DNA from: Rickettsiales bacterium
Lineage (GTDB): Bacteria > Pseudomonadota > Alphaproteobacteria > Rs-D84
DNA length: 64,000 nucleotides
Assembly (NCBI GenBank): GCA_031260805.1
Contig: JAISKV010000001.1
Location: 84,978 to 148,977, forward strand
Direction: 5' to 3'
In this document: positions 538 through 3,317 of the stretch, one piece after another
Layout of the letters: each line of letters starts with the position of its first letter
Numbering within the stretch: position 1 is the first letter of the stretch
Position numbers and translations under genes: made by a program
Notes under the pieces: generated by a model
Database searches by the model: none
Seen by the model: the letters and a program-made list of their open reading frames with translations, nothing else
Told to the model about the DNA's origin: nothing

Positions 538-1106
538 AGAAAGAAGTAAAGATTTTAGATAAAAATATAAATAAGATTTATACCATTCGCGGGGTCCAGG
601 TTATGCTGGACAGCGATTTGGCAGAATTGTATGAAATTGAAACAAAGAAACTAAACCAGGCGGTAAAAAGAAATCTGCACAGATTTCCGACAGATTTTAT
701 GTTTCAATTGGACAAGGATGATTTGGAAAACTTGAGGTTCCAATTTGGAACCTCAGGTTCCGGAAACTTGAGGTCACAATTTGTGACCTCAGGTTATGGC
801 GGCCGTAGATATATGCCGTATGTTTTTACGGAACACGGTGTTACAATGCTCTCGGCTGTGCTGAATAGTGAGCGGGCCGTGCAGGTTAATTTGGCGGTTA
901 TAAGGGCTTTTGTCGCAATGCGGCATCATTTTGCAAAGCCGCTGGTACAAAAGATAGATGATTTGGAACGGGTTTTAATGTTGCATATAGATGATACGAA
1001 CAATAATATTGAACAACATGCGGTAAGCATAAATGAAATTATAGAAGCGTTGAATAATTTGATAAACAAACCGGAACCGCCAAGACGAAAAATAGGTTTT
1101 ATATAA
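534..1106 (+). CDS. ORF6N-domain (phage antirepressor-like) DNA-binding protein
   Basis: IRGVQVMLDSDLAELYEIETKKLNQAVKRN...RFPTDFMFQL...GGRRYMPYVFTEHGVTMLSAVLNSERAVQVN is typical of ORF6N; 4-nt overlap with upstream gene. Confidence 0.9.
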   Translation: MKKEVKILDKNINKIYTIRGVQVMLDSDLAELYEIETKKLNQAVKRNLHRFPTDFMFQLDKDDLENLRFQFGTSGSGNLRSQFVTSGYGGRRYMPYVFTEHGVTMLSAVLNSERAVQVNLAVIRAFVAMRHHFAKPLVQKIDDLERVLMLHIDDTNNNIEQHAVSINEIIEALNNLINKPEPPRRKIGFI

Positions 1107-2647: not shown

Positions 2648-2932
2648 ATGATAACGACATTTGCGGACAAAGAAACCCGCAAGATCTTTACAGGGGAAGT
2701 ATCTTTGGAATTTCCGGCAAGCATTCAACGACGGGCCGCCAGAAAACTTGCCGCGATTCATTTTGCTGTGAATATTGAAGACTTGCGGGTTCCGCCGTCA
2801 AACAATCTGGAAAAATTAAAAGGCGACAGGACGGGACAACACAGCATAAGGATAAACGATAAGTACAGGATTTGTTTTGTTTGGACCAGAATGAATAATG
2901 CGGAACAGGTTGAGATAACTGATTATCATTAA
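2648..2932 (+). CDS. higB: HigB/RelE-family toxin
   Basis: FADKETRKIFTG...A.RKL..I..A.N.EDLRVPPSNNLEKLKGDRTGQHSIRINDKYRICF; HigB signature, adjacent to HigA-like gene. Confidence 0.9.
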   Translation: MITTFADKETRKIFTGEVSLEFPASIQRRAARKLAAIHFAVNIEDLRVPPSNNLEKLKGDRTGQHSIRINDKYRICFVWTRMNNAEQVEITDYH

Positions 2933-2984
2933 TGATTGACATGTTGTTGTATCTGGTATATACTGTGTACAACAGGGTTGAAAA

Positions 2985-3317
2985 ATGACGAAATATATAG
3001 ATATTGGAAATATTGGCGATTATTTGCTGGAAGAATGGCTGGAACCATTGGGCTTGTCGCGCAATGCGCTGGCCAATGCGATCGGCGTGCCGGCAAATCG
3101 CATAACAAACATTGTTAATGGGAAAACCGGGATATCTGTTGATACCGACCTGCGCCTGTGCAAATATTTCGGCATGTCCGAAGGACATTTTCTGCGGATG
3201 CAGGAGCATTTGGAACGGACGATTGCAAAACGCGGCCTGCAAAAGCAACTGGATAAAATTATTCCGATTAATGCGGCGAATGAAAATTGCGAAACACGCG
3301 GGCTGTTAAGTATGTAA
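2985..3317 (+). CDS. higA: HigA-family antitoxin (HTH XRE)
   Basis: GDYLLEEWLEPLGLSRNALANAIGVPANRITNIVNGKTGISVDTDLRLCKYFG. Confidence 0.92.
   Translation: MTKYIDIGNIGDYLLEEWLEPLGLSRNALANAIGVPANRITNIVNGKTGISVDTDLRLCKYFGMSEGHFLRMQEHLERTIAKRGLQKQLDKIIPINAANENCETRGLLSM

Follow-up and report, generated by a model that had tools for sequence, protein, structure and literature searches.

Palindromes inside ORF6N and Bro-N genes as probable binding sites of the proteins that these genes encode

Genes of the ORF6N family carry, within their own coding sequence, a palindrome whose bases change together with the recognition helix of the encoded protein. We have considerable confidence that the protein binds DNA at this palindrome and thereby limits its own synthesis: both the binding and the repression are inferred, and neither was measured.

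The stretch of DNA analysed (64 kb; hereafter the window) contains an ORF6N-domain gene of 190 aa on the forward strand (534–1106). Its product matches the Pfam ORF6N profile over the full length (PF10543; E=1.7e-35; 121.6 bits, against a cut-off of 27.8) and is thus a full member of the family; the only other Pfam match is to Phage_pRha, below the cut-off of that profile, and the same search matched no XRE/Cro-type HTH domain. Two palindromes, neither assigned to a strand, lie within the gene: TGAGGTTCCAA-T-TTGGAACCTCA (733–755; centre 744) and TGAGGTCACAA-T-TTGTGACCTCA (769–791; centre 780), each a perfect stem of 11 bp, with 36 nt between the two centres. Re-location of both in the window bears out the coordinates, perfect stems and 36-nt period given in an initial annotation of this DNA, and the encoded peptides that it listed are also correct. 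With one mismatch allowed (i=12), both palindromes reach arms of 15 nt (729–759 and 765–795). The pattern GAGGTNNCAANTTGNNACCTC occurs twice in the 64-kb window, where chance would give 0.01 occurrences, and the two occurrences are the palindromes themselves.

In the AlphaFold model of the window protein, helices 26–33 and 37–46 are placed with high reliability (pLDDT 92–97), the second being the predicted recognition helix of a helix-turn-helix (codons 37–46, TKKLNQAVKR; 642–671, forward strand). Both palindromes fall in the segment (732–800, forward strand) that encodes a flexible loop between helix 61–70 and strand 96–98; the loop is disordered in the model, with pLDDT <50 at residues 76–88. 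Comparison of the fold with PDB structures gave weak matches only (best E 0.25).

Across the family, a constraint on the palindrome as a DNA element is strongly supported. An initial sample of 80 ORF6N loci, fetched from genomes of many phyla, was enlarged by paralogues from 41 genomes and by 63 loci from viral contigs (IMG/VR); hosts include several bacterial phyla and one archaeal MAG. In a set of 121 genes, where the motif was placed by a protein HMM and not by palindromicity, 117 have at least nine of the eleven arm pairs and 64 have all eleven; most of the exceptions are accounted for by displaced sites. A palindrome score of at least 8 was found in 158 of 179 ORF6N genes compared to one of 356 neighbouring coding stretches of the same length; in approximately 12% of the ORF6N genes the palindrome is weak. 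The mean number of arm pairs is 10.4 of 11, whereas synonymous recoding by the codon usage of each gene leaves 4.9 (z=44).

The pairing profile, computed on 96 nonredundant sites, stands at 0.88–0.99 for arm positions 2 to 11, at approximately 0.8 for positions 12 and 13, and near background by position 16, which indicates an element of approximately 27 bp. Almost no variation is seen at positions 2 and 3 (CA) or 6 (T); nine others vary and covary, pairing at 0.78–0.98 against 0.34–0.62 expected, and the innermost arm position does not pair above expectation. At the left end, Leu is encoded by TTG in sites with Ser at the right end and by TTA in sites with Leu there: in each case the choice matches the demands of pairing. 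In eight genes the core of the palindrome is read one frame over, so that peptides of the ELITNCDKL type take the place of LRSQIVTS. Pairing beyond that left by synonymous recoding, together with survival of the palindrome through a frame shift that changes the peptide, indicates that the constraint acts on DNA. The initial annotation had inferred from compensatory changes between the two window copies that the palindrome itself is maintained: both the changes and the inference stand, and alignment of ORF6N nucleotide sequences, the check that it had recommended, extends the covariation to the whole family and reveals eight genes with two internal sites. The data reverse the outcome that it named as refuting (homologues keeping the peptide and losing the pairing): pairing is kept while the peptide varies.

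Bacteroidota, and loci that match ORF6N queries, weigh heavily in the sample, and the site class of a gene is that of its best-scoring palindrome: this choice slightly favours the palindromicity statistics, but not the residue-to-base relationships described below. A 33-nt blastn search against plasmids gave no match, and neither did a scan of viral sequences with the single window protein, although an alignment query did. Pattern scanning of viral contigs was uninformative, returning mostly intergenic hairpins, many of them terminator-like, plus chance matches. Some of these intergenic hairpins (contigs L111–L190; for example AGAGGTCGCAAATTGCGACCTCTTTTT) resemble the ORF6N site and look like bidirectional terminators.

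When the bases of the half-site are compared with every protein column outside the loop, mutual information is highest in the predicted recognition helix. Column 42 is coupled to position 4 (Z 45) and position 5 (Z 22), column 38 to position 7 (Z 20) and wing column 82 to position 10 (Z 19), while column 39 also stands out (Z 18.5); coupling of these columns to other protein columns, by comparison, averages a background Z of 0–2. The associations are specific. Gln at residue 42 goes with CA (42 of 44), Glu with CG (18 of 20), Lys with TC (14 of 17), Arg with GC or TC/GC hybrids, and Leu with TT or TG (4 of 4); Lys38 goes with G at position 7 (58 of 59) and Arg38 mostly with A; in wing column 82, Arg goes with G and Lys with A at position 10.

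Relatedness was controlled in several ways. Among matched pairs of genes (at least 70% identical, with identity computed without loop and contact residues), 96% of the 67 pairs that share residue 42 also share the site bases, compared to 0% of the 119 pairs that differ at this residue. The tree requires no fewer than 59 changes at residue 42. Pairs that are phylogenetically independent and lie on supported branches bear out all six elements of the code (Q, E, K, R, K38 and R/K82; p between 0.0005 and 0.016). When training sequences are limited to those of <60% identity, residue 42 predicts the site bases in 83% of cases, whereas the majority class is right in 40% and the nearest homologue in 20%; among columns other than those of the recognition helix, none predicts above 48%. 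The code is obeyed by six of the eight frame-shifted sites, which argues against coevolution between the helix and the loop peptide. Reading of the site by the encoded protein, by way of a residue-to-base code, is thus strongly supported, albeit by coevolution alone: there are no binding data. Since the genes come from hosts in different bacterial phyla and from an archaeal MAG, the reader that they share is most simply the protein itself, and the inference that an ORF6N protein binds the palindrome in its own gene is a very probable one.

A counterpart exists in Bro-N (PF02498). In the subfamily whose domain ends ...IQSIPSPKAEPFK, palindromes occupy the homologous place and 73 of 85 score at least 7 (loci L368–L397 and L482–L554); DinD-like Bro-N genes, taken as a contrast set, have no palindrome. 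The helix Y-W-x1-x2-L-K carries a two-residue code of its own: at x2, D goes with CG (17/18), V with TA (13/13) and K with GA (17/21), and at x1, R goes with GT (14/15) and Y with TC (4/4). In the model of one member, helix 48–61 is the second of a helix-turn-helix and the loop encoded by the palindrome comes after it; the peptides of Bro-N loops are unrelated to that of the ORF6N loop. The genome from which the window derives has a Bro-N gene (L546; G000:C15:15481-16302) that is interrupted by one in-frame stop and retains the palindrome TCAGTTGGTTACAA-A-TTGTAACCAACTGA, as expected for its YWKVLK helix.

For the window protein the code makes a definite prediction. Lys38 (AAG, 645–647), Gln42 (CAG, 657–659; the main specificity residue) and Arg92 (807–809; second R of GGRRY, HMM column 82), all encoded on the forward strand, would pair with G at ±7, CA at ±5,4 and G at ±10: the half-site so predicted, TTGAGGTCACAA, is exactly that of the second palindrome (769–791). 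The half-site of the first palindrome (733–755), TTGAGGTTCCAA, is of the K42-type class (TTCCAA), and the Lys codon AAG is one substitution from CAG, which is likewise a single base from a codon for E, R or L. Only the second palindrome is therefore predicted to be cognate. The suggestion in the initial annotation that both are operator-like sites for the encoded protein thus gains strong support from helix coevolution as to kind, but for the second palindrome alone.

Tandem internal copies are spaced 27–63 nt apart. All eight two-site ORF6N genes have at least one cognate site; in six, the window gene among them, the other site is of a different class, and in two both sites are cognate. A strict rule of one cognate and one foreign site, which held at first (6/6), was given up when a looser definition of sites reduced it to 6/8. 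The first palindrome of the window is most simply regarded as a leftover, or a target, of the specificity of the lineage before or after a one-base change in codon 42. The two sites may mark a switch of specificity in progress or the first may serve a second regulator; the evidence does not distinguish between the two. One Bro-N gene (L383:1441-2340) parallels the ORF6N tandem genes, having two in-frame segments encoded by palindromes (QLSDNFGQL and FQLSTNCRQL) that are apparently of different classes.

Palindromes also occur upstream of some ORF6N genes. Of 33 such leader copies, 10 match the gene's own protein, against 7.3 expected (P=0.11): because this is only slightly above chance, some are probably read by another regulator. 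Leader copies beside some genes fit ordinary operators, but with the match to the own protein not significant they were dropped as proof of autoregulation. Two intergenic palindromes, TTAAGGTCGCAATTTGCGACCTTAA, were observed in the genome of the window (L086:1405-1446, on G000:C11 after gatB; L087:1450-1480, on G000:C14 beside ruvC). Their form, TTAAGGTCGCAATTTGCGACCT(T/C)AA, is by the code of the E42/K82 type and not cognate to the window protein, and no ORF6N gene that matches them was found in that genome.

The mechanism that we propose places the binding site in the gene segment that encodes the flexible loop of the protein's own DNA-binding domain. A dimer would read the palindrome, each subunit one half-site, with residues 38, 39, 42 and 43 of the recognition helix and a residue of the wing (R92 in the window protein); in the window the second palindrome would be the working site. 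Once bound, the dimer is inferred to stop RNA polymerase approximately 200 nt into the ORF, and such a roadblock would impose negative feedback on synthesis of the protein under any promoter. Promoter-independent autorepression is on present analysis the most likely function, with roadblock and repression both inferred.

The setting of the window gene is that of a mobile gene in a borrowed operon. Its ATG overlaps the stop codon of the upstream neighbour (ATGA, 534–537), whose 3' part occupies 1–537, and the downstream neighbour (1116–2462) begins 9 nt past its own stop; both neighbours are on the forward strand. In 27 of 29 fetched loci from relatives of the same family the two neighbours are present in this order with no ORF6N gene between them, and there the upstream gene directly adjoins the downstream one. 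Almost no extra sequence accompanies the inserted gene on either side (534–537; 1107–1116), and only 7 of 36 genomes of the family have it. Self-limitation that does not depend on the promoter would suit genes that transfer from operon to operon, and the window gene has made such a move. Two further features were noted downstream: 12-nt tandem repeats at 2391–2450 encode a TETP repeat with which the 1116–2462 protein ends, and at 2648–3317 a gene for a HigB-like toxin and, after it, one for an HTH antitoxin-like protein form a probable higBA toxin-antitoxin pair.

Binding of a protein within its own gene is known from phage lambda O, the sites (iterons) for which lie inside the O gene. Like LacI at O3, lambda O is a single system, whereas the ORF6N site is family-wide, with a class that follows the recognition helix. 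LacI autoregulates at O3, a site at or within its gene, where it acts as a roadblock (PMC3711431). The closer likeness is to C.Kpn2I, the controller of the Kpn2I restriction-modification system, which has been shown experimentally to bind a site, single or duplicated, inside its own ORF and, as an elongation roadblock, to stall RNA polymerase: the authors argue for a promoter-independent regulation suited to horizontal transfer (PMC6237814). C.Kpn2I, however, belongs to the XRE/C-proteins, and its site lies where the gene begins (about -14 to +34). The ORF6N/Bro-N site, by contrast, is approximately 200 nt into the ORF, in the segment encoding a loop; it is found across phyla, and its coevolution with the recognition helix can be decoded. 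No account of internal operators or binding sites in ORF6N or Bro-N genes was found in the literature searched; subscription journals were mostly not covered, and absence is unproven.

A minority possibility, which we do not discount, is that the internal palindrome is bound for a purpose other than autorepression: recognition of related incoming elements (immunity classes), cross-regulation among ORF6N paralogues, or replication and partition, for which phage lambda O, with binding sites in its own gene, is the parallel. The presence of ORF6N and Bro-N genes on plasmids and phage-like contigs, the many changes at residue 42, and the existence of upstream sites and foreign-class second sites are all in keeping with this. 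Yet among the matches listed from the 41 genomes, palindromes are found almost only in, or just 5' of, ORF6N genes. Avoidance of a shared class by co-resident paralogues is suggestive (0 of 61 in the fetched set; P=0.012), but as a rule it is contradicted by pairs with the same site in genomes G074 and G083, which were not part of the fetched set. No replication genes were seen beside the window ORF6N gene, though none were specifically sought.

Action as an mRNA hairpin (an attenuator, translational operator or processing site) appears improbable. As hairpins, the long perfect stems, closed by a loop of 3 nt, would be stable, and the palindrome keeps a fixed place early in the ORF; however, G-T mismatches are no commoner than A-C mismatches (16 of each at arm positions 2–12), and so give no sign of the wobble tolerance of RNA, and a hairpin leaves unexplained why bases track residues 38, 42 and 82. 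The ORF6N gene and palindromes have no Rfam match, the only hits being chance microRNA matches at an unrelated inverted repeat.

Still harder to sustain is the idea that the arms are kept complementary without function, either because the palindrome is a selfish coding element or because hairpin-templated (quasi-palindrome) mutation restores it. Coding palindromes are already known as Rickettsia RPEs, Wolbachia elements and PARCELs, and share with the ORF6N site a place within coding sequence, tolerant loops and sometimes a tandem arrangement; they are described, however, either as repeats that are mobile or dispersed among genes of various kinds or as amphipathic repeat proteins (PMC2996958 and references therein). 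The tandem copies, and a disordered loop like the insertion sites of RPEs, speak for such an origin. The ORF6N/Bro-N palindrome nevertheless occupies one homologous place in one superfamily, is coupled to the residues that read DNA, and is not scattered in unrelated genes; a dispersed mobile palindrome is ruled out, as is membership of the RPE/PARCEL kind, by the confinement of sites to ORF6N genes and their borders among the matches listed, and the window protein lacks the 25-aa amphipathic tandem repeat. Templated mutation, for its part, cannot couple arm bases to codons approximately 75 nt away in supported independent pairs. This coupling contradicts both versions, which could still explain the duplication step: the hairpin-driven expansion raised in the initial annotation may at most account for the origin of the tandem copy, and not for why the bases track the recognition helix. 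Finally, conservation of the LRxQFxTS peptide for the sake of the protein, with the palindrome incidental, is compatible with the use of one frame by most genes and with similar peptides among close relatives, but is refuted by the frame-shifted sites and has against it the synonymous null and the unrelated peptides of Bro-N loops.

Returning to self-binding and autorepression, a wider picture can be drawn, although we would not yet commit to it: ORF6N and Bro-N genes may be mobile, promoter-independent, self-repressing cassettes in which the codons for the DNA-binding domain also contain the operator, their specificity shifting by single-base changes in the helix, and two-class genes such as that in the window would be caught mid-switch, one site being read by the present protein and the other by a neighbour one mutation away. 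Such a self-contained operator is a plausible reason why these genes can be dropped into foreign operons, and provides a concrete hypothesis of function for proteins annotated merely as 'ORF6N domain-containing' or 'BRO family'. With reader and target in one gene, a protein–DNA code becomes readable from sequence alone in large and mostly uncharacterised families: the code makes DNA specificity predictable and gives hundreds of natural repressor–operator pairs, with which a long-standing question is made testable, namely by what route regulator and site can shift specificity in concert while binding is preserved.
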